Shown here one piece after another: positions 5,284 through 53,217 of a stretch of 64,000 bases of DNA. A program made the position numbers and the translations under genes. Positions within the stretch are counted from its first letter, which is position 1, and each line of letters opens with the position of its first letter. Origin of the DNA: Streptomyces sp. Ag109_O5-10 (GTDB taxonomy: Bacteria > Actinomycetota > Actinomycetes > Streptomycetales > Streptomycetaceae); contig NZ_FNTQ01000001.1 of the NCBI RefSeq assembly GCF_900105755.1, positions 6,076,001 to 6,140,000 of the forward strand, in the 5' to 3' direction. The notes under the pieces are model-generated. The model searched no databases, was not told the origin of the DNA, and saw nothing but the letters and a program-made list of their open reading frames with translations.

Positions 5284-5694
5284 CTACTGGTTCGCGGTGC
5301 CGTTCGCCGACAGCGCGGAGATGTCGTCCAGGACGTGCGACAGCGGCTCGTCGCCCTTGGCCTGGGTGGAGTTCTCCACGCACTGCTGGTTCTGCGGCGC
5401 GGACAGGATCGGCACGTCCTGGGCGACGCCGACGGCGACCGCACCGACGAGACCCTGCAGGTTCGCCTTGAGCGGGAGACCGACGCACGGCTTGTTCAGC
5501 GATCCCTGGACCAGCGAGAGCTGCGGGCTCAGGTCGCCGAAGGTGGCCGAGTTGCCGAACTCCGACTTGGCTTCGTTGCCGCTGAGGGAGGTGGTGCCGG
5601 TGTCGTTGCCGGTGGCCAGGGCCTGGGGAGCGGCCGTAGCCGCGAAACCGGCGACGGTGACGGCGACAGCCGCGGTCGCCCACAGCTTCTTCAT
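5284..5694 (-). CDS. Rodlin protein (copy 1)
   Basis: This 136-residue secreted protein belongs to the rodlin family, which forms the paired-rod (rodlet) layer on aerial hyphae and spores together with chaplins. A Sec signal peptide (MKKLWATAAVAVTVAGF, cleavage after about APQALA) precedes a mature part with the family hallmarks TGND, SPQ, the two cysteines in LNKPCVGLP and [16 protein letters not shown], and the end [15 protein letters not shown]. The ATG at 5694 is chosen because AAGGGAAC lies just upstream and the signal peptide begins there. It is the first of three rodlin copies here. Confidence 0.93.
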   Translation of the reverse strand: MKKLWATAAVAVTVAGFAATAAPQALATGNDTGTTSLSGNEAKSEFGNSATFGDLSPQLSLVQGSLNKPCVGLPLKANLQGLVGAVAVGVAQDVPILSAPQNQQCVENSTQAKGDEPLSHVLDDISALSANGTANQ

Positions 5695-5849
5695 GATTGT
5701 TCCCTTCGAAAGGCGGACTCCGGGGAGGAGCTGCGTGATCGTCAACTTACCCGGATTCGCCCAGGTTGCGTGGTATGCCCCGATTGGCGGAGCGCAGTCC
5801 GATCAGTCGACCGGCGCGCCCTCGAACCGGGGCCCGGAGTGCTTCCGGA

Positions 5850-6263
5850 CTACTTGTTGCCGGTGCCGTTCGCGGACAGCGCGGAGATGTCGTCCAGGAT
5901 GTGCGACAGCGGCTCGTCGCCCTTGGCCTGGGTGGAGTTCTCGACGCACTGCTGGTTCTGCGGCGCGGACAGGATCGGCACGTCCTGCAGGACGCCGACG
6001 GCACCCAGGCCGACCAGGCCCTGGAGGTTCAGCTTCGCCGGGAGGCCGATGCAGGGCTTGTTGAAGGAGCCCTGGATGAGCGCCAGCTGGGGGCTCATGT
6101 TGCCGTACGTGGCGGAGTTGCCGAACGCCTGCTGGGCGTCGTTGCCGCTGAACGAGGTGGTGCCGTGGTCGTTGCCGGTGGCCAGGGCCGGCGAGGCGGC
6201 GGCAGCGGAGGCGCCGATGGCGGAGGCTGCGACTGCGGCGGCGGCCAGAACCTTCTTGATCAC
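5850..6263 (-). CDS. Rodlin protein (copy 2)
   Basis: A 137-residue rodlin with a signal peptide ([17 protein letters not shown], cleavage after about SPALA). Its mature part is very close to copy 1, keeping LNLQGLVG, the two-cysteine pattern ([16 protein letters not shown]) and [10 protein letters not shown]. The start is GTG with GAAGGGAAC upstream. It lies in tandem with copy 1 (155 bp between them) and divergent from copy 3, the arrangement expected for rdl gene pairs with one extra duplication. Confidence 0.93.
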
Positions 6264-6529
6264 TTGTCAGTTCCCTTCTGAGGACACCCCGTCCACCGGA
6301 GCGCACTGGTCAACTGCGCGCGCTCTGGTTGGTTGCTCCGCTTCACTCCAACGGCCCACGCCGGGAAATCGCCCGTTTGCGGGAAGGCCCGGTTTTCCGG
6401 GGAATTCCGGGAGGCCGTCGGTCCGAACGGGTGACGTGGCGCCCGGTGCCGCAACCATTCCGGACGCGCGCGGTTGATGCCGGACAGGAACGTCCGTCTT
6501 GGCCTGAGCGCCGGGAAAGGAAAAGCGAA

Positions 6530-6946
6530 ATGCTGAAGAAGGCAATGGCCGCGGCGGCGGTCGCCGTGTCCGTCGTAGGTGTGTCGGCGGCGGCAGCCCC
6601 CCAGGCGCTTGCCACCGGCAACGACCACGGCACCACCTCCGCGAGCGGCAACGGCGCCCAGGAGGCGTTCGGCAACTCGGTGACCAAGGGCAAGATGAGC
6701 CCGCAGGCCACACTGGTCCAGAGCTCGCTCAACAAGCTCTGCGTCGGCCTTCCCGCGAAGGCGAACGCCCAGGGGATCCTCGGCCTCATCGCCGCCGTCG
6801 GGGTGGCCCAGGACATCCCGGTCCTGTCCGCGCCGCAGAACCAGCAGTGCGCCGAGAACTCCACCCAGGCCAAGGGCGACGAACCGGTGTCGCACATCCT
6901 GGACGACATCTCCGCGCTGTCGGCCAACGGCGTCGCCAACCAGTGA
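6530..6946 (+). CDS. Rodlin protein (copy 3)
   Basis: A 138-residue rodlin, divergent from copy 2. The signal peptide ([17 protein letters not shown]) is followed by mature [16 protein letters not shown], two cysteines ([17 protein letters not shown]) and the conserved tail [15 protein letters not shown]. The ATG at 6530 is preceded by GGGAAAGGAAAAG. The 266-bp divergent spacer to copy 2 should hold both developmental promoters. A strong terminator follows at 6961. Confidence 0.93.
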
Positions 6947-6960
6947 CCCCGGTCCTGTGA

Positions 6961-7007
6961 AGCCCGCCCGGGCGGTGCGCGTGACCGCGCCGCCCGGGCG
7001 GGCTTTT
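6961..7007 (+). terminator. Intrinsic terminator after rodlin copy 3
   Basis: A long GC stem (AGCCCGCCCGGGCGGTGCGC paired with its complement ending GGGCGGGCT) is followed by TTTTG. Confidence 0.9.
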
Positions 7008-7225
7008 GTCGTGCCCCGAAATTCCGCCGCGAGGAGAAGCGTTTCCTCTCTCCGTGTCAATTCTCGGCGGGCGTTCGAGTGAATTGGTCGAAGAGGCACG
7101 TTCCGTAGTTTCTTCGACCGTCTATTCCTCGTTCTACAGCCTGCCGGTCATGGTGCGAGCCGTTCATGCTGTGCTCGCTCGGTTTCGGCCGACATACGGG
7201 CATGACCGCAGAGAAGGGAAAGTTC

Positions 7226-7453
7226 ATGAAGAAGACCGCTGCTGTGGTCGCCGGCGCGCTCCTGGCGCTGGGCGGTGCCATCCCCGCTTTCGCCTCCGCC
7301 GGTGCGGAGGGTGCTGCCGCCAACTCCCCGGGCGTCGTCTCCGGCAACGTGATCGAGGTCCCGGTCCACGTCCCGGTCAGCGCCTGCGGCGACACCGTCG
7401 ACGTCATCGCGCTGCTGAACCCGGCGTTCGCCGGCGTCTGCGCCAACAGCTGA
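7226..7453 (+). CDS. Short chaplin
   Basis: This 75-residue protein has a signal peptide (MKKTAAVVAGALLALGGAIP, cleavage after about AFA) and one chaplin domain (NSPGVVSGNVIEVPVHVPV, then ACGDTVDVIALLNPAFAGVCAN). The two cysteines are the pair that forms the disulfide in short chaplins. Chaplins assemble into amyloid-like surface films that let aerial hyphae break the water surface. The ATG at 7226 follows AAGGGAAAG. Its position beside the rodlins resembles chpD of S. coelicolor, but I do not assign the symbol on position alone. Confidence 0.93.
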   Translation: MKKTAAVVAGALLALGGAIPAFASAGAEGAAANSPGVVSGNVIEVPVHVPVSACGDTVDVIALLNPAFAGVCANS

Positions 7454-22206: not shown

Positions 22207-22446
22207 ATGTCGCGTATCGCGAAGGGCCTGGTCCTGTCCACCGCCGCCGTCGCGGCCGTCGCCGGCGGTGCCGCCGCGGCTGTCGCCGACAGCGGCGCGA
22301 ACAGCGCCGCCGCCCACTCCCCGGGCGTGCTGTCGGGCAATGTGATCGAGGTTCCGATCCACGTGCCGGTCAACGTCTGCGGTGACACCATCGACGTGAT
22401 CGGCCTGCTGAACCCCGGCTTCGGCAACACCTGCGTCAACGACTGA
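22207..22446 (+). CDS. Short chaplin
   Basis: A 79-residue chaplin with a signal peptide (MSRIAKGLVLSTAAVAAVAG, cleavage after about AVA) and one chaplin domain. The domain contains HSPGVLSGNVIEVPIHVPVNVCGDTIDVIGLLNPGFGNTCVN with both disulfide cysteines (segment quoted in two parts: HSPGVLSGNVIEVPIHV and CGDTIDVIGLLNPGFGNTC). AAGGAGACC precedes the ATG. A very strong terminator follows. It assembles into the hydrophobic amyloid coat of aerial hyphae. Position relative to melC resembles chpF of S. coelicolor. Confidence 0.94.
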   Translation: MSRIAKGLVLSTAAVAAVAGGAAAAVADSGANSAAAHSPGVLSGNVIEVPIHVPVNVCGDTIDVIGLLNPGFGNTCVND

Positions 22447-26443: not shown

Positions 26444-26728
26444 TCAGGAGCCGTAGCCGCCGTTCTTGCCGTCACCGGCCTTGAGGTGGCCCTCGTTGCC
26501 GCAGGTGCTGCCGAACGCCGGGTTCAGCAGACCGATCACGTCGACGGTGTCGCCGCACACGTTCACCGGGATGTTGACCGGGACCTGGATGACGTTGCCG
26601 GACACCACGCCGGGCGAGCTGACGGCCTCGCCGTTGGCACCCGCGTCGGCCAGGGCCAGGCCGGCGCCGCCGATCACCACAGCGCCGGTGCCGAGGGCTA
26701 CGACGGCGGCCTTCGCGATGCGAGACAT
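26444..26728 (-). CDS. Short chaplin with C-terminal extension
   Basis: A 94-residue chaplin. The signal peptide is MSRIAKAAVVALGTGAVVIG (cleavage after about ALA). The chaplin domain holds SPGVVSGNVIQVPVNIPV and CGDTVDVIGLLNPAFGSTC, with both cysteines. Unlike the other two, it continues with a 15-residue Gly/Lys tail (EGHLKAGDGKNGGYGS). AAGGAG precedes the ATG. By position next to melC2 it resembles chpG of S. coelicolor. Confidence 0.93.
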   Translation of the reverse strand: MSRIAKAAVVALGTGAVVIGGAGLALADAGANGEAVSSPGVVSGNVIQVPVNIPVNVCGDTVDVIGLLNPAFGSTCGNEGHLKAGDGKNGGYGS

Positions 26729-26850
26729 CACGTTCTCCTTCTTGTTGCTCGGGGAGTGCGGCGGCAGGACCAGCCGCCGCACTCCCCGTTCAACGCCCCG
26801 ACCTGCGGCTGGTCACGCCGATCAGCGGACGATCACTCCAAGGGCCGGAG

Positions 26851-28075: not shown

Positions 28076-29005
28076 TCAGTTCGTCGCAAGGATGGAGCGG
28101 TACCACGGTTCGGCCAGGCCGAACCACGTCTCGAAGCCACCCCCCGGCCGCTGACCGAGATCCGCCCAGAGCGCGTCGGCCGCGAAGAAGTGGTCCGTCG
28201 TGAGGATGTCGAGCGTGCCCTGCGGAACCCCCTTCGCCGCGAGGATCGCCTTGGCCCCCTCGACGGTGAGGTTGTCACGCGGCCAGTCGATCCCCGCACA
28301 CCCGGCGACCGCCCGCAGCGCACTGCCCACGGTGACCGGCGCCGGATCCGCGGCGTGGTACACCCGCGAGGTCAGGACCCCGTCCGGCGCCAGCGCGGTC
28401 GCGACCAGCAGCCGGGCCAGGTCCGGCGCGCCGATGACCGACGCCCGTGACAGCCAGCCGGCCACCACTCCCGGCAGGGCCCGCAGCAGCCGTGCCAGGG
28501 TCGGGCCGACCCACAGGTCCCCCACTCCGAAGACCAGATGGGGCCGGAGCACCACGCCGCCGGCCGAGAGGACCGCGTCCTCCGCCGCCGCGCGGGTGCG
28601 GGAGGTGACGGAGCCCGGATTGCGGGTGAGCTCCTCGGGCCGGAGGCCGCGGAAGGTGCCGCGGCCGTACACCGAGGCCGTGCTGAGCTGGACGATCCGG
28701 CGCACTCCGGCCCGCCGCGCCTCGGCGACCAGCGCGGCCGTGCCGCGTGCGTTGACCGCCTCGTTGGCCGCGGCGCTGCCGCCTATCTGTGCCGCGCAGT
28801 GCAGGAGCACGTCGACCCCGTCGCACACCCCGCGCAGCGAGCGGGGGTCGGTGAGGTCGGCGTGCACGGTCCGGGCCCCTGAGCAGGACCGCGGCAGGGA
28901 CCGGCGGTGGCTCATGAGCCTGAGGTCGGCCCGCCGGCGCTGTGCCTCGCGCGTCACGTGGGCCCCGACGAACCCGGACGCGCCGGTGATGAGAAGGATG
29001 GACAC
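28076..29005 (-). CDS. NAD-dependent epimerase/dehydratase-like protein
   Basis: A 309-residue extended-SDR protein with N-terminal TGASGFVGAHV (NAD site), the Ser motif LSTASVYGRG, and LRPHLVFGVGD. At the place where YxxxK should follow the Ser motif the sequence reads SVTSRTRAAAEDAV, so the catalytic Tyr and Lys seem replaced. The start is GTG with GGGAG upstream. It lies 27 bp after the AfsA-like gene in the same direction, so a role in making or modifying the butyrolactone signal is plausible; a non-catalytic or altered mechanism is possible. Confidence 0.75.
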   Translation of the reverse strand: MSILLITGASGFVGAHVTREAQRRRADLRLMSHRRSLPRSCSGARTVHADLTDPRSLRGVCDGVDVLLHCAAQIGGSAAANEAVNARGTAALVAEARRAGVRRIVQLSTASVYGRGTFRGLRPEELTRNPGSVTSRTRAAAEDAVLSAGGVVLRPHLVFGVGDLWVGPTLARLLRALPGVVAGWLSRASVIGAPDLARLLVATALAPDGVLTSRVYHAADPAPVTVGSALRAVAGCAGIDWPRDNLTVEGAKAILAAKGVPQGTLDILTTDHFFAADALWADLGQRPGGGFETWFGLAEPWYRSILATN

Positions 29006-29032: not shown

Positions 29033-29989
29033 TCAGCGGACACGGGGCCGCAGGAGGAGTTCGGCGGTGAAGACCGTCTCCTGCCGCTGGCTGCCGCGCA
29101 CCCGCACCAGCAGGTCGCCGCGGTCGCCGTGGGGTTCGGGGTCGGCCGTGATCCAGCAGGGCGCGTCGAGTTCGGCGTACCGCGTGAACTCGCTGCGCGT
29201 GCCGAGCAGCAGGGCGCAGGGTGCCCCGGTGCGGGCGTGCGCGGCCTGCCGGGCGGCCTCCAGGAGGAACATGCCGGGTATGTGGTCGACCGGGTGGTCG
29301 AAGTAGGTCGGGTGCGCGGTGTCGACCCGTAGTTCCCATCTGCCCCGGGTGCCCGGCGCGGGTTCGCACAGGGCGACGTGCCGCGCGGTGGCGTGACCCA
29401 CGGCGGCCGGGTCGAGGGCCGGCGGCGGGGTGCGGTCGGTGCTGGTGGGGCGCTCCCCGCGCATGCGCCGGTACACGTCCGGGCTCATGCAGCGGAACGC
29501 GGCCGAGGCGGTGGCGCGGGCCCCGTTCTCCCGGACCACGGTCACGTCGTAGCGCATCTCCCGCAGCCGGCCGGCGCGGCGGACGACGTCCCGGCAGACC
29601 GCGTGCATCTCGACGTCGGTGGGGACCGCGTCCGCGACGAGCAGGTCGGGCTCGGCGGTCACGGACATGTCAGACATGAGGAACTGGTAGCCGAACGGCA
29701 CGTCGAACTCGGCGTGGGCGAGCAGGGATCCGATCTGGCGGATCGACTCGATCAGCAGCATCGGGTCCTGGTATCCGCCGTCGGGGGCGAACAGCGCGTG
29801 GCTGCGCGGCCATTGGGCCCGGACGACGAAGCCGTCGAAGCCGTCGGCGCCCGGGGACTCGTCGCGCTCCCAGCCGGTGAGCAGGACTTCGGAGACCGCC
29901 GCGCGGTGGACGTACTCACGCGGCACAGTGGTGGTCAGTCCGGGAAGCAGGGGCTTCGGGGCGATGGCCCGGTCGGTGAGGTGCGGCAT
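29033..29989 (-). CDS. AfsA/ScbA-type gamma-butyrolactone synthase
   Basis: A 318-residue protein with two A-factor hotdog repeats. It contains VPREYVHRAAVSEVLLTGW at the start and DHPVDHIPGMFLLEAARQAAHARTG in the second repeat, both typical of AfsA. It condenses a beta-ketoacyl chain with dihydroxyacetone phosphate, the committed step to a gamma-butyrolactone or related signal. The ATG at 29989 is chosen because ACAGGAG lies just upstream. Its promoter spacer carries a butyrolactone-receptor operator (30086). Together with the receptor genes at 31434 and 32054 it forms a complete signal system. Confidence 0.92.
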   Translation of the reverse strand: MPHLTDRAIAPKPLLPGLTTTVPREYVHRAAVSEVLLTGWERDESPGADGFDGFVVRAQWPRSHALFAPDGGYQDPMLLIESIRQIGSLLAHAEFDVPFGYQFLMSDMSVTAEPDLLVADAVPTDVEMHAVCRDVVRRAGRLREMRYDVTVVRENGARATASAAFRCMSPDVYRRMRGERPTSTDRTPPPALDPAAVGHATARHVALCEPAPGTRGRWELRVDTAHPTYFDHPVDHIPGMFLLEAARQAAHARTGAPCALLLGTRSEFTRYAELDAPCWITADPEPHGDRGDLLVRVRGSQRQETVFTAELLLRPRVR

Positions 29990-30079
29990 GTGCAGCGCTC
30001 CTGTGTCGGTGTGACGGGAAGGAGGGGGCAACAAGCCGTACGCCGGCTGTCACCCCCCGTGGCCGACGTTCTGCCCCAC

Positions 30080-30110
30080 AAGATACAGACAGGTCGGTCC
30101 GGTTCTGCAA
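30080..30110 (-). promoter_or_regulatory. afsA-like gene promoter with receptor operator in spacer
   Basis: Reading leftward, TTGCAG (30110-30105) and TATCTT (30085-30080) are 19 bp apart. The spacer holds CCGACCTGTCTG (complement of 30086-30097), one mismatch away from the palindrome seen at 30379, 31390 and 32863. A receptor bound here would sit between -35 and -10 and repress signal synthesis. Confidence 0.7.
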
Positions 30111-30193
30111 GAGGCGAAGCGATTTCTTGGGCGAGTCGGGATGCCTTGAGGGCTTGCCATCGATGTCAACGGTCCGATATGTCGGCATTGTAA

Positions 30194-30225
30194 CCATGAA
30201 ACGTACAAGGTTGTATGGTTCATGG
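30194..30225. promoter_or_regulatory. 32-bp near-perfect palindrome, second-TetR operator candidate (site A)
   Basis: CCATGAA at one end and TTCATGG at the other enclose a core of ACGTACAAGG and TTGTATGG. Only a few of the 16 base pairs mismatch. Its complement shares 20 of 24 positions with 32721-32744, just upstream of the TetR gene at 32054. It lies between the divergent afsA-like and response-regulator genes. Confidence 0.7.
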
Positions 30226-30370
30226 AAGATGTATGACCCTTGGCCAAGTCTTTCCGTGGGGCGACTTAACGGAGTCTGACCTCCCACTTGTCCGGTATTC
30301 CGACGAAATCGCAGCTCAAGATAGGGGTGTTAAGGGGTGGCGCGAGCGGCGCGCCTCTGGCTCGGGGCAG

Positions 30371-30401
30371 TTGACAATCAGACAAGTCTGTTTGGTACGG
30401 T
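30371..30401 (+). promoter_or_regulatory. Response-regulator promoter with receptor operator in spacer
   Basis: TTGACA (30371-30376) and TACGGT (30396-30401) are 19 bp apart. The perfect palindrome CAGAC-AA-GTCTG (30379-30390) fills the spacer. This is the same layout as the afsA-like promoter on the other strand. Confidence 0.75.
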
Positions 30402-30454
30402 CTGGTCGTGAACCCGCAGTCCGAGATGACGTGGATGTGCCTCAGGGGGAGCAG

Positions 30455-31276
30455 ATGAAGCGCCAGTACGCGGACCTCGTGGCGCCGTCGCCGCGCCGCC
30501 ACCGCTCGCACGGCCCGCTCGTCCCGGCCGGTCACCCGGCCGGCCACTCGGCAGCGCACCCGGCCCACCGGGCCCCCGCGTACGGCGCGCCCCGCGCGGG
30601 CGCGCTGCACGTCCTGGTCGTCGAGAACGACCCACGGGCCGCCGACCCCCTCCTGCAGGGGCTGGCCCGGCACGGCTACGCCACCCACGGCGCGACCACC
30701 GGCGCCCAGGCGCTGCGCGCCCACCGGGAGGCCGACCTGGTCCTGCTCGACCTCGACCTGCCCGACCTCGACGGCCTGGAGGTGTGCCGCGGCATCCGGG
30801 CGGTCAGCGACCTGCCGATCATCGCCGTGACCGCACGCGGCTCGGAACTCGACTGCGTGCTCTGCCTGCAGGCCGGTTCGGACGACTACCTCGTCAGGCC
30901 GTACGGCTTCCGGGAGCTGCTGGCCCGGATGGAGGCGGTACTGCGCCGGGTGGGGGTCCGGCCGGCGGACGAGCCGGCGGCCGGCCGGGTCGTCACCCAC
31001 GGGCCGCTGCGCATCGATCCGGGCGCCCGCACGGCCGTCCTCGACGGGCGGCCCCTCGACCTGACCCGCAAGGAGTTCGACCTCCTGCACCTGCTGGCCT
31101 CGCAGCCCGGCACGGTGATCCCGCGCCGCCAGATCATGGCCCAGGTGTGGGACGACGCGTGGTCGCCGCGCGGCCGCACGGTCGACACCCACGTGGGCAC
31201 CCTGCGCGGCAAACTGGGCTCCAGTGCCTGGATCGTCACCGTCCGGGGGGTCGGCTTCCGGATCGGCAGTCCCTAG
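30455..31276 (+). CDS. Atypical OmpR-family response regulator (JadR1 type)
   Basis: The 273-residue activator has a receiver domain (about 51-163) and an OmpR winged-helix DNA-binding domain (about 175-272, ending TVRGVGFRIGSP). Phospho-acceptor position Asp99 is kept (LVLLDLDLPDLDG). The acidic pair is changed to EN at 57-58 and the invariant Lys before Pro is Arg148 (LVRPYGF), so normal phosphorylation is doubtful, as in JadR1-like regulators that bind end products. A 50-residue His/Pro-rich N-terminal tail precedes the receiver. GGGGGAGCAG precedes the ATG at 30455. No sensor kinase lies nearby. Likely the pathway-specific activator. Confidence 0.88.
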   Translation: MKRQYADLVAPSPRRHRSHGPLVPAGHPAGHSAAHPAHRAPAYGAPRAGALHVLVVENDPRAADPLLQGLARHGYATHGATTGAQALRAHREADLVLLDLDLPDLDGLEVCRGIRAVSDLPIIAVTARGSELDCVLCLQAGSDDYLVRPYGFRELLARMEAVLRRVGVRPADEPAAGRVVTHGPLRIDPGARTAVLDGRPLDLTRKEFDLLHLLASQPGTVIPRRQIMAQVWDDAWSPRGRTVDTHVGTLRGKLGSSAWIVTVRGVGFRIGSP

Positions 31277-31382
31277 CCCTCTCCCGCGTTATCCCAGCTC
31301 ACGTCCGATTCCGGCGCACGGCTCGGGAACCGCTTGCCGACAACTCCCGCCGCGGTACTGACCGTGAGCCGCCTGTGCGGCT

Positions 31383-31408
31383 TACGATACAGACCAGTCT
31401 GTTGAATT
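31383..31408 (+). promoter_or_regulatory. Receptor gene promoter with autoregulatory operator
   Basis: A -10-like TACGAT (31383-31388) is followed at once by the palindrome CAGAC-CA-GTCTG (31390-31401), so the operator covers the transcription start. This fits autorepression of the receptor gene starting at 31434. Confidence 0.7.
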
Positions 31409-31433
31409 CAGCGGGAGAGCGTAAGGATCTGGC

Positions 31434-32042
31434 ATGGCTCAGCAGGAACGCGGCAAGCGGTCACGGCGGTCGATCCTGGAGGCGGCGGCCCAGGTCTTCG
31501 ACGAGCGCGGCTACGACGCCGCCAGCACCAACGAGATCCTGGCCCGCACCGGACTCACCCGGGGGTCCCTCTATCACCACTTCCCCTCCAAGGAAGCCAT
31601 CGCGCTGGCCCTGGTGCAGGCCCACGCCGAGGCCCTGCAAGTGCCCGAACGGCCGATCAGGCTGCAGTCGGTGATCGACCTGACCCTGGAGTTCGCCCGG
31701 CGCCTGCAGCACGACGCGGTGCTGCGCGCGAGCGTGCGGCTGACGACGGAGCAGACGTCGTTCGACTGCCCGCCGCAGACCACCTACGAACAGTCCATGG
31801 ACACCATCCTGACGCTGCTCCAGGAGGCCGAGAAGCGGGACGAGATCCTGCCGGGGGTGGACGTGCGCGAGGTGGCCTCGCTGGTCGTCGGCTCGTTCAC
31901 CGGTCTGCAGATCATGTCCCAGGCCTACACCGGCCGCGCCGACCTGCCCGAACGCACCAGCGTCCTGTGGAAGTTCCTGCTGCCGGGACTCGCCACGCCG
32001 GGCCTGGTCGGGCGGCTGCGCACGACGCCGCCCGAGGAGTGA
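31434..32042 (+). CDS. Gamma-butyrolactone receptor, TetR family (ScbR/ArpA type)
   Basis: A 202-residue repressor. The N-terminal HTH (ILEAAAQVFDERGYDAASTNEILARTGLTRGSLYHHFPSKEAIA, quoted here as AAAQVFDERGYDAAST and LTRGSLYHHFPSKEA) is that of butyrolactone receptors. The all-helical ligand domain follows, with SVRLTTEQTSFDCPP and GLQIMSQAYTGRADL in the typical places. AAGGATCTGGC precedes the ATG. It should release its operators when the AfsA-derived signal binds. Four matching operators lie in the window. Confidence 0.9.
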   Translation: MAQQERGKRSRRSILEAAAQVFDERGYDAASTNEILARTGLTRGSLYHHFPSKEAIALALVQAHAEALQVPERPIRLQSVIDLTLEFARRLQHDAVLRASVRLTTEQTSFDCPPQTTYEQSMDTILTLLQEAEKRDEILPGVDVREVASLVVGSFTGLQIMSQAYTGRADLPERTSVLWKFLLPGLATPGLVGRLRTTPPEE

Positions 32043-32053
32043 CCGGCCCGCCC

Positions 32054-32638
32054 TCAGATCCTGCGCTCGCCGCCCCGGCCCGGCGGCAGGTCCCGGTCGA
32101 ACAGCGGGCGCAGCAGCCGCCACAGGCGCTGGGTGATCTCGCCGTCCCACCAGCCCGGGTCGGTGTGCCCGAGGGCCTCGACGCCCGCGGCCATCACCAC
32201 CGCCAGGTCGGCGAGGTCCCCGGCCTGCTCCGCGGACTCCTTCTGTGCCTCCGTCACCCGCTCGTGGACCGCGGCGAGCAGGTCGTCGCGCAGCCGGGGC
32301 GGTCCGGCCGAGCCGTCCGCGGCCAGCTGCATGCCCGCCCGGACGACCTTCTCGGTGCGCATGGCCTCGCCGAGCGCGAACAGGAAGCGCTTGGGCGCGT
32401 CCGCCGCCGGCCCCGCGAAGGCCTCCTCGGTCAGCGCCTCCACCCGCGCTCTCGCCTCCTCGTACACGGCCGCGGTCAGCGCGGTGGTGGAGGCGAAGTG
32501 GTGGTAGAGCGCCCCCCGGCTGACCCCGGCTCGGCGGCAGATGTTGACCAGTCCCGCGTCGGACAGCCGACCGTCCGCGATGAGCTCGGCGGTGGCATGG
32601 ACGAGAGCCTGACGCGTGTGCTCGGATCGCGCCTGCAT
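32054..32638 (-). CDS. TetR regulator, pseudo-butyrolactone-receptor type
   Basis: A regulator of about 194 residues with the N-terminal pattern MQARSEHTRQALVHATAELI and HTH VNICRRAGVSRGALYHHFASTTAL. The ligand domain is looser than in the receptor at 31434, as in ScbR2/JadR2 pseudo-receptors that often bind antibiotics instead of butyrolactones. The ATG at 32638 fits the family start; an in-frame ATG at 32698 would add 20 residues without family likeness. It is convergent with the receptor gene. A matching operator (site B) lies upstream. Confidence 0.85.
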   Translation of the reverse strand: MQARSEHTRQALVHATAELIADGRLSDAGLVNICRRAGVSRGALYHHFASTTALTAAVYEEARARVEALTEEAFAGPAADAPKRFLFALGEAMRTEKVVRAGMQLAADGSAGPPRLRDDLLAAVHERVTEAQKESAEQAGDLADLAVVMAAGVEALGHTDPGWWDGEITQRLWRLLRPLFDRDLPPGRGGERRI

Positions 32639-32720
32639 CAGGTCGTACCCGCCTTCCCTGCCAGCAGTGTGCCCGGTACGTGCACGCGCTGCGGGCATCG
32701 GTACCAATGGTGGTAAGAAT

Positions 32721-32744
32721 CATACAACCATGCCTGTTTCATGG
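32721..32744. promoter_or_regulatory. Second-TetR operator candidate (site B)
   Basis: CATACAACC followed by ATGCCTGTTTCATGG agrees at 20 of 24 positions with the complement of site A (30194-30225). It lies 83 bp upstream of the TetR start at 32638, placing it at the promoter of that gene. Confidence 0.68.
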
Positions 32745-32862
32745 GAGGACCCCGGCGGTGGCCTACCTCCGCATGATCTCCACACGATCCCAACTTCCCT
32801 GGCGGCAGGGGTGGGTGTCCGGAAACATGCGCGGTGAGCGACGTCCCGAATGCGTCCTCAAT

Positions 32863-32874
32863 CAGACAGGTCTG
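32863..32874. promoter_or_regulatory. Butyrolactone-receptor operator, fourth copy
   Basis: CAGAC-AG-GTCTG is a perfect 5+2+5 palindrome, flanked by AT on the left and TTTGTAA on the right as at 30379. It lies in the divergent region between the TetR gene (leftward) and the gene at 33038, 39 bp upstream of the TTGACAC repeats. Confidence 0.75.
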
Positions 32875-32901
32875 TTTGTAAAAGAGTGCGAATCCGGCCA
32901 G

Positions 32902-32944
32902 TTGACACAGGGTTGACACTCCGCTGACAGAGCTGCGGAGGATT
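32902..32944 (+). promoter_or_regulatory. Heptamer direct repeats TTGACAC/TTGACAC/CTGACAG, SARP-box-like
   Basis: Three heptamers start at 32902, 32913 and 32924, an exact 11-bp period with 4-bp spacers. Eight bp after the third lies AGGATT as a possible -10. SARP-type and OmpR-type winged-helix activators bind this layout. The target would be the gene at 33038. The likely binder in the window is the response regulator at 30455; no SARP gene is present. Confidence 0.6.
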
Positions 32945-33037
32945 GTGGGAAGCCTGAACCGCCGTGCGTTGAAGCGGCCGCCCGCCCCCGTGAGACTGGA
33001 CGCAGTTCCACACGGACCGAGGATTCGGGGGATCCGA

Positions 33038-33667
33038 ATGGAAGAGCCGGAGCGACTCACGGACGACCACGTCAGCCGCGACTGCCGCAGGCGCTGCGGC
33101 CGGATCTGCGTCCGCTGCCTGGACCGGATCGACGGCGGCCTGCGCACCCTGCTCGACCTGTACCGGGAGAGCGACCAGGCGCTGGTGCCCGGGGCGCCGG
33201 TGCTGCGCGAGCGGGTGAGCGGCAGCCGCGCCACCGTCGGCATCGTGCTCGACGAGCGGACGCTGGCCCTGCGGGCCCGGGCGGCCGAGGTCATGGCGCT
33301 GTGGGCGCGGCTCGTCGTGGACGAGCGCGCCGGCGCCCGGCCCGCGGACCGCGGGGTGCCCGCACTGGTCGGGTTCCTGCGCGGGCAGCTGTCCTGGTTC
33401 GCCGGGCACCCGGCGGGCGCCGACCTCGACGAGGAACTCGCCGAGCTCCTCACCGACTTCGGCCACCTGCTCGGCCCCGGCCCGGTCCGCCGGTTCGCCC
33501 TCGGCGCCTGTACCCGGCCGGAGTGCGCCGGGACGCTCTACGGCGTCCTGCCGGCGGACGGCGGCGACCGGGTGCCGGACCAGGTGGCCTGCGACGCCGG
33601 CCACGCGCTGCCGCCGCGCCAGTGGCTGCTGGTCGCGAACCGGGCGCGGGAGGCGGTGACGACATGA
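33038..33667 (+). CDS. Cys-rich protein of unknown function, paired with HTH gene
   Basis: A 209-residue protein. The N-terminus has a Cys cluster (RDCRRRCGRICVRCLDRIDGG). The C-terminus has a second group (GACTRPECAGTLYG, QVACDAGHALPPRQW). Together they could bind zinc. The middle is helical. I recognise it only as one of a Streptomyces family commonly paired with a small excisionase-like HTH protein. It overlaps the next gene by ATGA. A receptor operator and SARP-like repeats lie directly upstream, so it probably belongs to the regulatory cascade. Confidence 0.75.
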   Translation: MEEPERLTDDHVSRDCRRRCGRICVRCLDRIDGGLRTLLDLYRESDQALVPGAPVLRERVSGSRATVGIVLDERTLALRARAAEVMALWARLVVDERAGARPADRGVPALVGFLRGQLSWFAGHPAGADLDEELAELLTDFGHLLGPGPVRRFALGACTRPECAGTLYGVLPADGGDRVPDQVACDAGHALPPRQWLLVANRAREAVTT

Positions 33668-33882
33668 CGGGCACGGGAGACGGTGACGGCGGGACGGTGC
33701 CCGCGGCCGCCAAGCCGCGCACGGTCCCGACGGAACTGGCGGCCCTCGCGATGGGCGTCACCCAGGCGACCATCCGCAAATGGGCCAGCCGCGGCAAACT
33801 CACCCGCCACGGCGGCCCCCGGCGCGCCGAGTACGACCTCGACGAACTGTTCGCACTGGTGCGCAGGGGCGAGACCGAATAG
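33664..33882 (+). CDS. Excisionase/MerR-like small HTH protein
   Basis: A 72-residue protein with a single winged HTH: PTELAALAMGVTQATIRKWASRGKLTRHG followed by AEYDLDELFALVRR (first part quoted in under 30 letters as MGVTQATIRKWASRGKL). This is the excisionase/MerR-N fold, used both in phage excision and in small transcription factors. The ATG overlaps the previous stop, so the two are coupled. No integrase is near, which argues for a regulatory role. Confidence 0.8.
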   Translation: MTGTGDGDGGTVPAAAKPRTVPTELAALAMGVTQATIRKWASRGKLTRHGGPRRAEYDLDELFALVRRGETE

Positions 33883-36944: not shown

Positions 36945-38249
36945 ATGGCTGCCGTCGCCCCCGATCCGCTCACCCCTCTTCTCGTCGCCGTGCCTGTGGT
37001 GATCCTCGCCTGCAGGGCCGGGGCCCAGCTGCTCAGGCGGCTCGGGCAACCCCCTGTCGTCGGCGAGATAGTCGTCGGCATCCTGTTCGGCCCGTCCCTG
37101 CTGGGCTGGCTCTGGCCCGGCGCCCAGACCTGGCTGTTCCCGCAGTCGGCGCTGCCCTACATCGGCGTGCTCGGGAACATCGGCCTGCTCGTGTTCATGT
37201 TCCTCGTCGGACTCGAACTCGACCTGAAGTCCCTGCGCGGCCACAGCAGAACGGCCGTAGCGGTCTCCCAGGCCGGGATCGCGCTGCCGCTGCTCCTCGG
37301 CACGCTGCTGGCCCTCGGCATGTACGGCGACTTCGCCCCGCCCGGCACCGAGAAGCTGCCGTTCGTGCTGTTCATCGCGGTGTCGATGAGCATCACCGCG
37401 TTCCCGGTGCTGGCCCGCATCCTGACCGACCGGGGCCTGTACCGGACCCGGCTCGGCGCACTCGCCATGGCCAGCGCGGCCGTGGACGACGTCAGCGCCT
37501 GGTGCCTGCTGGCCGCGGTGGTGGCGGTGACGAAGAGCAACTCGCCGCTGGAGGCCCTGACCACCGCCGGGTACGCGCTCGCCTTCGCCGCCGTGATGTT
37601 CCTCGTCGTACGGCCGCTGCTGGCCAGGTGGGCCGCGCGGGCGGAACGCCGGTACGCCGACGCGGTCGTGCTGGTGGTGCTGTTCAGCGGGCTGAGCCTG
37701 GCCGCCTTCGCCACCGACCGGATCGGGGTGCACGCGCTGTTCGGCGCCTTCCTGTTCGGGGTGGTCACCCCGCGCGGCAGCCGGCGGATCGAGGCCACGG
37801 CGGCCCGGATGCGGGCCTTCGCGGTGCCGGTGCTGCTGCCGCTGTTCTTCGTCAGCACCGGGCTGAAGACCGACGTGGGGCTGCTCGGCGGCAGCGGTGC
37901 CCAGTGGCTGTGGGCGGGGGCCGTGCTCGCCGTCGCCGTGGCCGGCAAGTGGGGCGGCGGCACGCTCGCCGCGCGGCTCTCCGGCCGGGACTGGCGGGAC
38001 TCCATGTCGCTGGGCGCGCTGATGAACTGCCGTGGCCTGACCGAGCTGATCGTCCTCAACATGGGGCTCGGTCTCGGGGTCATCGGGCCGGAGCTGTTCA
38101 CGGTCCTCGTGCTGATGGCGCTGCTCACCACGGCCATGACCACCCCGGCGCTGACCCGGATCCGCAAGGGGATCGACGAGGAGCCCGAGCGGGAGACGGC
38201 CGGAACCGGCCAGGACGAACCCGCTCTGGAGATCGCGAGAACCCGCTGA
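36945..38249 (+). CDS. CPA2 (KefB-type) cation/proton antiporter
   Basis: A protein of 434 residues with about 12-13 membrane helices. It has LGQPPVVGEIVVGILFGPSLLGW near the N-terminus and SITAFPVLARILTDRGL and ASAAVDDVSAWCLLA in the transport core, the CPA2 pattern with a conserved Asp pair. No TrkA-N domain is attached. MNCRGLTELIVLNMGLGLGVI is a further family block. GAGGAGAACGCG precedes the ATG. Such antiporters recur in polyketide clusters and may aid proton-driven resistance or export. Confidence 0.9.
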   Translation: MAAVAPDPLTPLLVAVPVVILACRAGAQLLRRLGQPPVVGEIVVGILFGPSLLGWLWPGAQTWLFPQSALPYIGVLGNIGLLVFMFLVGLELDLKSLRGHSRTAVAVSQAGIALPLLLGTLLALGMYGDFAPPGTEKLPFVLFIAVSMSITAFPVLARILTDRGLYRTRLGALAMASAAVDDVSAWCLLAAVVAVTKSNSPLEALTTAGYALAFAAVMFLVVRPLLARWAARAERRYADAVVLVVLFSGLSLAAFATDRIGVHALFGAFLFGVVTPRGSRRIEATAARMRAFAVPVLLPLFFVSTGLKTDVGLLGGSGAQWLWAGAVLAVAVAGKWGGGTLAARLSGRDWRDSMSLGALMNCRGLTELIVLNMGLGLGVIGPELFTVLVLMALLTTAMTTPALTRIRKGIDEEPERETAGTGQDEPALEIARTR

Positions 38250-52356: not shown

Positions 52357-52431
52357 CCCCCCTCCGGCCGCCGGCGCCCGTCCTGACCGGGCGCCGGCGG
52401 CTCCCCCATGTCCTGAAAGGGAGCTGCAGAC

Positions 52432-53217
52432 ATGTCCGAACAGCAGCAGAGGGTCGCCCTGGTCTCCGGGGCCACCAGCGGAATCGGTCTCGCCGCGGCG
52501 CGGCTGCTGGCCCGGCAGGGCCACCGCGTCTTCATCGGCTCCCGCGACGCCGGGAACGTCGAGCGGACCGTGAAGGAACTGCGTGCGGAGGGGCTCGACG
52601 TCGACGGGACCACCCTCGACGTGCGGTCCGCGCTGTCCATCGAGACCTTCGTGCGGGCCGCCGTGGAGCGGTACGGCACCGTCGACGTGCTGGTCAACAA
52701 CGCCGGCCGGTCCGGCGGTGGCGTGACCGCCGACATCGACGACGAACTCTGGTACGACGTCGTCGAGACCAACCTCAACAGCGTCTTCCGCCTCACCCGC
52801 GCCGCCCTCACCACCGGCGGCATGCGGGAGAAGAGCCGGGGGCGGATCATCAACATCGCGTCCACGGCCGGGAAGCAGGGCGTCGTGCTCGGGGCGCCGT
52901 ACTCCGCCTCCAAGCACGGCGTGGTCGGCTTCACCAAGGCCCTCGGCAACGAGCTGGCCCCCACCGGCATCACCGTCAACGCCGTCTGCCCGGGATACGT
53001 GGAGACGCCCATGGCACAGCGGGTGCGCGCCGGTTACGCCGCCGCCTACGACACCAGCGAGGACGCCATCCTCGACAAGTTCACGGCGAAGATCCCGCTC
53101 GGCCGCTACTCGACCCCGGACGAGGTCGCCGGCCTCGTCGGCTACCTCGCCTCCGACACCGCCGCCTCCATCACCGCGCAGGCCCTCAACGTCTGCGGCG
53201 GCCTCGGCAACTTCTGA
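52432..53217 (+). CDS. Polyketide C-9 ketoreductase (SDR)
   Basis: A 261-residue SDR with the NADP motif SGATSGIGLAAARLL, NNAG in VLVNNAGRSGGGV, and catalytic Ser and YSASK (Tyr near 158). Length and the phrase PGYVETPMAQRVRAGYA are those of aromatic polyketide ketoreductases of the ActIII/UrdD group, which reduce the C-9 carbonyl of the nascent chain. GAAAGGGAGCTGC precedes the ATG. Confidence 0.95.
   Translation: MSEQQQRVALVSGATSGIGLAAARLLARQGHRVFIGSRDAGNVERTVKELRAEGLDVDGTTLDVRSALSIETFVRAAVERYGTVDVLVNNAGRSGGGVTADIDDELWYDVVETNLNSVFRLTRAALTTGGMREKSRGRIINIASTAGKQGVVLGAPYSASKHGVVGFTKALGNELAPTGITVNAVCPGYVETPMAQRVRAGYAAAYDTSEDAILDKFTAKIPLGRYSTPDEVAGLVGYLASDTAASITAQALNVCGGLGNF

Follow-up and report, generated by a model that had tools for sequence, protein, structure and literature searches.

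Are the short palindromes among the regulatory genes beside a type II polyketide cluster of Streptomyces sp. Ag109_O5-10 the operators of an autoregulator system encoded at the same place, and if so, what might that system control and sense? The palindromes, of the form CAGAC-N2-GTCTG, lie in a stretch of 64,000 nucleotides, here called the window (contig 1, positions 6,076,001-6,140,000, of a two-contig genome of 9.46 Mb; coordinates below are those of the window). They surround four genes: afsA (29033-29989, minus strand, 318 aa), for an AfsA/ScbA-type signal synthase; a gene for an atypical OmpR-type response regulator (30455-31276, plus strand, 273 aa); a gene for a TetR regulator resembling ScbR-family autoregulator receptors, here called the receptor (31434-32042, plus strand, 202 aa); and tetR2, for a second TetR regulator (32054-32638, minus strand, 194 aa). 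Judging from sequence comparisons, the sites very probably are the operators of one self-contained switch of the autoregulator type, which resembles the SagA/SagR-Aur1P system of auricin.

Operators in the window and in the genome

The core CAGAC-NN-GTCTG occurs perfectly at 30379, 31390 and 32863, and with one mismatch at 30086. The initial annotation of this locus had described these as four copies of a butyrolactone-receptor operator. All four are present at the positions given, but the count is too low, as there are at least five sites (O1 to O5), the fifth being O4 at 32722-32739.

By itself, the bare core carries little weight. If two mismatches are allowed, it occurs 25 times in the window, compared to 40.3 expected, and the pattern ACAGACNNGTCKGT, also with two mismatches, 12 times, compared to 10.2 expected; neither is enriched. 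Further cores with one mismatch stand at 37125 and 52427, so that the site at 30086 would be unconvincing on its own. Perfect cores number eight in the whole genome (one for the reversed control pattern), and three of the eight fall within 2.5 kb at this locus. Decisive is the A/T-flanked motif, AWACAGACNNGTCTGTWT, which is found genome-wide in 14 places at up to three mismatches, compared to two for the control pattern. One mismatch is seen in three places, two in none and three in 11, the last class including 30083 and 32722. The three best places are 30376, 31387 and 32860, all in this locus; the whole-genome scan, which the initial annotation had proposed as a check, thus bears it out.

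A weight matrix derived from related loci ranked these five sites first in the window, with 36.3 bits at 30376 (O2), 34.6 at 32860 (O5), 24.1 at 31387 (O3), 22.2 at 30083 (O1) and 17.6 at 32722 (O4), where the best of 60 random 64-kb sequences reached 14.6 bits. Since its 111 training sites, from loci L025-L071, were chosen with the pattern that the window had suggested, the reverse test, in which a matrix from the window is applied to the relatives, is the cleaner of the two (see below).

Several lower matches were rejected. Those at 30171 (11.2 bits) and 30199 (9.1 bits), in the gap between afsA and the response regulator gene, are weak and were left out of the operator count, as was one at 52424 (11.0 bits), which overlaps the start of the gene at 52432. 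Cross-talk sites were sought in the 3.5-kb loci of four other ScbR homologues of the same genome (L103, L104, L106, L107), where the best match had 12.5 bits. Of the two weak palindromes in the gap (30171-30216), the second, at 30199, corresponds in the relatives to degenerate inverted repeats and may serve another regulator; the match at 52424 sits at the start of a reductase gene in the polyketide region. A search of the open-access literature for the operator letters gave no match in any paper titled on Streptomyces.

Promoter geometry and conservation

A search for related loci confirmed 286 relatives of the receptor, the nearest of them from Streptomyces. We kept the best 80 loci and used 49 (L023-L071; Streptomyces, Streptacidiphilus and Kitasatospora; receptor identity 56-97%), setting aside 31 (L072-L102) as distant or partial. 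Genes in relatives were positioned from the starts of tblastn matches, and some of the 49 loci end at contig ends, so that an absent neighbor may be an artefact.

With a matrix made only from the four window sites described initially, the best site upstream of the homologous gene scored higher than 99% of the randomised sequence in 36 of 42 loci for afsA, 30 of 36 for the response regulator, 45 of 49 for the receptor and 28 of 29 for tetR2. The sites also keep a fixed place relative to promoter elements. For this comparison we considered related sites of at least 15 bits and elements at fixed distances from the operator; the background frequency of TANNNT is 0.0007 per position.

O1 (22.2 bits, minus strand; 18-mer 30083-30100) lies in the spacer of a predicted leftward afsA promoter (30080-30110), which consists of TTGCAG (30110-30105), 19 bp and TATCTT (30085-30080); relatives have TANNNT at the -10 position in 31 of 38 afsA sites and TTG at -35 in 21 of 38. 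O2 (36.3 bits, plus strand; 18-mer 30376-30393) fills the spacer of a predicted rightward promoter of the response regulator gene (30371-30401), with TTGACA (30371-30376), again 19 bp, and TACGGT (30396-30401). Here TTGACA recurs in 25 and TANNNT in all of 30 related sites, 19 bp apart, and in an alignment of this promoter TTGACAATCAGACAAGTCTGTTTG is retained in most of the relatives aligned while the flanks have diverged. The geometry originally claimed for these two sites, each filling a 19-bp spacer, is correct, and its registers recur in relatives. O3 (31383-31404, plus strand, 24.1 bits; 18-mer 31387-31404) overlaps the presumed start site and the -10 element of the receptor gene, TACGAT (31383-31388); the claim that it abuts a -10 holds as well, and TANNNT is kept in this place in 35 of 42 related sites. 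O4 (ATACAACCATGCCTGTTT; 32719-32739, minus strand, 17.6 bits; 18-mer 32722-32739), which had been overlooked, overlaps TATGAT, the -10 element of tetR2. A site of at least 12 bits is found here in 17 of 29 relatives. Of the ten sites that reach 15 bits, nine have TANNNT but none TTG at -35, and there is no -35 consensus.

Across the clade, 27 of 49 loci have a site with no more than one mismatch, and of their 54 half-sites 33 are CAGAC and 14 CCGAC. Upstream of canonical receptors, where 15 of 30 loci have a site, half-sites are mixed (CGGAC 5 of 30, CCGGC 4 of 30, CAGAC 2 of 30). An A/T-flanked palindrome in the promoters of receptor, synthase and regulator genes characterizes autoregulatory elements (AREs), and this is what we find. 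The comparisons support the view that the sites look like operators of a locally encoded ScbR-type system, with afsA, the response regulator and the receptor as fitting targets, and indicate that the operators placed in spacers or over a -10 and start site are real and conserved. The alternative, that they are chance palindromes of a GC-rich genome, would agree with the lack of enrichment of loose two-mismatch cores. We rejected it as practically negligible, as it is contradicted by the genome-wide rarity, the matrix ranking, the conservation and the promoter registers.

DNA looping was considered and is not claimed. Between the afsA and response regulator operators we saw no helical phasing (p 0.19-0.98 for five assumed periods). 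For the near and far tetR2 operators, p was 0.40, 0.11, 0.07, 0.04 and 0.01 at periods of 10.0, 10.4, 10.5, 10.6 and 11.0 bp, values which are uncorrected for multiple testing or kinship and whose minimum does not fall at the B-DNA period of 10.5 bp.

The proposed switch

What the comparisons show is that the sites exist, that they are rare and that they keep their position within promoter elements which are themselves conserved; from this we infer the following switch. The 31434 repressor would bind the palindromes with their A/T flanks and block RNA polymerase at afsA and the response regulator gene, where the operator lies between -35 and -10 elements 19 bp apart. It would also block transcription of its own gene, where the operator lies over the -10 and start site. 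A weaker operator would act over the -10 of tetR2, and another in the divergent region between tetR2 and an OvmZ-like gene. As the signal made by AfsA builds up, the repressor would be released, more signal would be made and the Aur1P/JadR1-like activator would be expressed. This response regulator might then activate the genes at 33038-33882, acting at heptamer repeats at 32902 (see below), and either the activator or the OvmZ/OvmW-like pair encoded there would turn on the polyketide genes, which lie downstream, from about 48.5 kb of the window. Such a five-operator wiring diagram is testable and would offer a rational way to wake the polyketide cluster, by deletion of the repressor or supply of the signal.

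The synthase scores above its cut-off (NF041195, 332.7 compared to 200 bits; Pfam AfsA). The response regulator has the OmpR architecture (Pfam Response_reg and Trans_reg_C) with an altered phosphorylation pocket, as in atypical regulators of the JadR1/Aur1P type: read from the sequence, the acidic pair D-D has become E-N and the receiver lysine arginine, residues that we take to have these roles in the pocket. It is the probable activator of the cluster.

Several observations weigh against this picture. The best upstream site failed to reach the 99% null level in 6 of 42 regions for afsA, 6 of 36 for the response regulator, 4 of 49 for the receptor and 1 of 29 for tetR2, and the relatives behind our counts are not independent of each other, 31 of the 80 loci having been excluded as distant. 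A consensus sigma-70 scan of 29900-33100 yielded no promoter; as it was limited to spacers of 16-18 bp, the predicted promoters rest on conservation. Around 32863, the -35 (TCCTCA, 32855-32860) and -10 (AAAAGA, 32880-32885) elements look decayed. The recognition helix of tetR2 proteins ends in YHHF in 27 of 30 cases, like that of the receptor, whereas canonical receptors have YFHF in 30 of 30. Finally, ScbR-family receptors have a conserved tryptophan in the ligand pocket (W119 in ArpA, W121 in ScbR, W127 in CprB), and none of the 50 members of our receptor clade (the window and 49 relatives) has a tryptophan in that segment; 37 have serine and 12 alanine. This tryptophan takes a direct part in binding the ligand, and mutation of W119 in ArpA abolished the binding of butyrolactone (PMC3461410; this and the papers cited below by PMC number are cited from excerpts).

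The receptor and its signal

The initial annotation had called the 31434 protein a butyrolactone receptor. Membership in the ScbR family is well founded, as the protein exceeds the curated cut-off (NF041196, 197.2 compared to 150 bits), but butyrolactone as its signal is unproven because the clade lacks the ligand tryptophan. The window protein has serine in this position; the one remaining clade member, which was ambiguous in the alignment column, was settled by scanning residues 113-140 for any tryptophan. By contrast, all 30 canonical homologues that were read from genomes of the genus have the residue, among them the protein at 354 kb of the present genome, and so do three further homologues of this genome (L104, L106, L107). 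It is also present in all five ScbR-family proteins read from positions 160001-210000 of pSA3239 and, at the same alignment position, in PDB chains 6wp7 (AvaR1), 5xaz and 6srn, the latter two of which we take to be TylP and MmfR.

As this key residue is missing, the signal probably differs from a standard butyrolactone or else binds in another way. An afsA match accompanies the receptor in 42 of 49 loci; this genetic partnership with an AfsA-type synthase speaks against a simple loss of signaling. In our reading the receptor is a true autoregulator switch, but one with an altered mode of signal binding or with a signal of different chemistry. Its isoelectric point (pI) of 5.87 is acidic to neutral, as in true receptors, but does not discriminate, since that of the tetR2 protein is 5.88.

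The second possibility for the 31434 protein is that it is a functional pseudo-receptor, which would use the same operators and sense a polyketide intermediate or the antibiotic, as reported for Aur1R, JadR2 and SfbR2. The missing tryptophan would fit this, as would the location next to the response regulator gene, which recalls the gene at the position of aur1R beside aur1P. We consider it rather unlikely, given that the protein is 41% identical to the SagR-position protein of the auricin plasmid but 33% to the Aur1R-position protein, that its pI is acidic and that afsA is so often its neighbor. Moreover, the Aur1R-position protein and, according to the excerpt of PMC7480387, SfbR2 keep the tryptophan, so that its loss is not a mark of pseudo-receptors.

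Returning to the receptor as a true switch, its clade may also stand apart from the known ones. The recognition helix ends in YHHF in 50 of 50 clade receptors, compared to YFHF in 30 of 30 canonical ones. We tentatively entertain the idea that this clade, with its missing tryptophan, its own AfsA and its CAGAC-N2-GTCTG operators, forms a channel separate from ArpA/ScbR, with a signal other than a classical butyrolactone. The only other AfsA gene of the genome adjoins another ScbR homologue (G000:C1:354456-357539; L103, L112), whose receptor is canonical and tryptophan-bearing, so two signaling channels probably coexist. The clade appears scattered rather than general, since no member was found at E ≤ 1e-60 in 60 other genomes drawn from the genus. 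In the open-access literature we found no description of a tryptophan-less clade with a uniform operator set. What such AfsA-linked receptors sense is the question that this clade raises.

The second regulator

The tetR2 protein (TetR_N) scores 91.3 bits with NF041196, below the cut-off of the ScbR family, and also lacks the ligand tryptophan. Its likely start, ATG at 32638, is backed by the gene call and by the onset of similarity in most relatives; TTG at 32707 is a possible alternative. In a small unrooted FastTree tree it groups with the Aur1R-position protein and another protein of pSA3239 (support 0.91). By analogy with SfbR/SfbR2, the similar recognition helices suggest that it may share operators with the receptor.

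Could it then be the main or a competing binder, with the 31434 protein taking only part of the sites? The YHHF end, which 27 of 30 tetR2 proteins have in common with all 50 receptors, would allow it, and two loci whose tetR2 proteins have xFHF (L066, L067) are without strong tetR2 operators, although these two proteins are alike and may represent a single event. In S. filipinensis, the receptor and the pseudo-receptor bind the same sites, as the excerpt of PMC7480387 describes. Against this, operators at the receptor gene also occur in loci without a separate tetR2 match (e.g. L047, L048, L068), and sites at afsA, the response regulator and the receptor are the usual targets of a receptor. 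We therefore regard this alternative as unlikely and retain the 31434 protein as the candidate repressor.

The far operator and the OvmZ/OvmW-like pair

O5 (32860-32877, unstranded, 34.6 bits), the site at 32863, lies in the gap between tetR2 and the OvmZ-like gene, which is the next rightward gene. This gene (33038-33667, plus strand) codes for a predicted co-activator of the OvmZ/Aur1O type (209 aa; 34% identity to the Aur1O-position protein, E 4e-21), for which a Pfam scan gave no significant match. It is overlapped by a gene for a small OvmW-type protein (33664-33882, plus strand, 72 aa), whose matches to MerR/HTH_17 are weak (E 0.002-0.005, below the cut-offs). In OvmZ/OvmW pairs, a homologue of OvmZ stands before a small gene of the MerR/HTH_17 kind, and the window has this arrangement, with the Aur1O-position protein as our point of comparison and the sub-threshold match for the smaller partner.

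Whereas the sites precede afsA, the response regulator and the receptor as first described, the edge drawn from 32863 to the 33038 pair is the weakest of the diagram: the promoter looks decayed, the two relatives checked have a histidine-kinase-like gene in this place, and the pair has heptamers of its own. Among 24 counterparts of the far site, 11 have TTGACA and 11 have TANNNT. In many relatives the far operator precedes a gene whose predicted product has roughly 370-435 aa and begins with a similar N-terminal sequence; in the two that we scanned (L028:7550-8707 and L037:5772-6875), the gene following the far operator and promoter matches histidine-kinase models. In these two loci an autoregulator operator thus stands before a putative sensor kinase gene.

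Three TTGACAC-like heptamers with a period of 11 bp, at 32902, 32913 and 32924, span 32902-32930 and lie 8 bp before AGGATT (whole element 32902-32944, plus strand). The triple is the only one of its kind in the window, has no equal in 20 random sequences and recurs, altered at a few places at most, in four OvmZ-bearing relatives (L023, L024, L026, L027). Heptamer repeats at 11 bp that end 8 bp before a -10 have what we take to be the layout of SARP/OmpR-type activator sites. The heptamers are a putative activator site of the 33038 operon, at which the response regulator (30455) is the obvious candidate to act.

It is quite possible, at somewhat less than even chances, that the operator at 32863 is a remnant or acts on tetR2 alone, and that the heptamer promoter, with an OmpR/SARP-type activator, drives the pair. 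The decay of TCCTCA and AAAAGA in the window, the intact promoter before a histidine-kinase-like gene in L028 and L037, with similar predicted N-termini in other relatives, and the conserved heptamers in the four OvmZ-bearing relatives all fit this. Yet O5 is still near-perfect at 34.6 bits, compared to 16.4 bits in the OvmZ-bearing L026 and L027, and it may still be selected, for example because a repressor there would get in the way of an activator some 25 bp further on.

Further genes and loci

An NAD-dependent epimerase/dehydrogenase gene (28076-29005, minus strand; Pfam Epimerase) adjoins afsA, with synteny in relatives; its product is possibly a signal-tailoring enzyme. In Streptomyces sp. 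ADI95-16 (L117), the module of epimerase, afsA, response regulator, receptor and tetR2 is located on a 630-kb linear plasmid, where its neighbors differ (P450, rubredoxin, desaturase). Receptor and regulator matches were also seen on other S. goshikiensis plasmids. The module may therefore travel between clusters. Elsewhere in the window, at 5284-7453, 22207-22446 and 26444-26782, are several small proteins that are probably secreted; some contain an SGN motif, and they look like chaplins.

Comparison with known systems

The closest counterpart is the auricin system SagA/SagR-Aur1P/Aur1R of S. lavendulae CCM 3239, whose genes we named by position and product, as the record of plasmid pSA3239 gives products. 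The window AfsA is 46% identical to the SagA-position protein and the response regulator 58% to the Aur1P-position protein. Among the five ScbR-family proteins of the plasmid, the receptor is 41% identical both to the SagR-position protein and to one unnamed protein. The OvmZ-like protein resembles the Aur1O-position protein, as noted above, and both loci have a type II polyketide synthase. Binding to the aur1P promoter is described for both SagR and Aur1R (PMC8910723). Unlike in the window, the genes of aur1 do not lie together, and aur1P is followed by the Aur1O-position gene; tryptophan is retained in the proteins at the SagR and Aur1R positions; and the window pair is of the shorter OvmZ plus OvmW type. 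The operators differ as well, as the best matrix match at aur1P has 11.0 bits (ACAAACCGCTGCGTCGGTTTGT) and the best in the 50-kb region 15.5 bits.

In the kinamycin system AlpZ/AlpW-AlpV of S. ambofaciens, AlpZ represses alpV, alpXW and itself (PMC7343708). This resembles our proposed switch in that a receptor represses an activator gene, the operon of a second regulator and its own gene, with an afsA-like gene nearby and a signal that the excerpt of the same paper describes as thought not to be a butyrolactone. However, AlpV is a SARP and not a response regulator, and the likeness rests on the description of AlpZ, not on its sequence. In S. filipinensis, the sfb cluster has five AREs, each footprinted (PMC7480387). 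They likewise lie in one regulatory cluster, are bound by receptor and pseudo-receptor (SfbR and SfbR2) and have an 18-nt consensus, but the targets described include StrR- and SARP-type regulators, and SfbR, like SfbR2, keeps the tryptophan.

OvmZ/OvmW pairs are interdependent activators of angucyclinone clusters (PMC11264864; PMC8910723) and, as here, comprise a gene of the OvmZ type with a small MerR-like gene downstream of it, next to a type II polyketide synthase. In the system described in PMC11264864, ovmZ is controlled by AdpA, whereas the window has an autoregulator operator and heptamer repeats upstream. Auricin thus already shows the logic of AfsA, ScbR-type receptor, ARE and atypical response regulator, and kinamycin shows it with a SARP as the activator; the new part, relative to the open-access literature, is the tryptophan-less clade with its uniform operator set.

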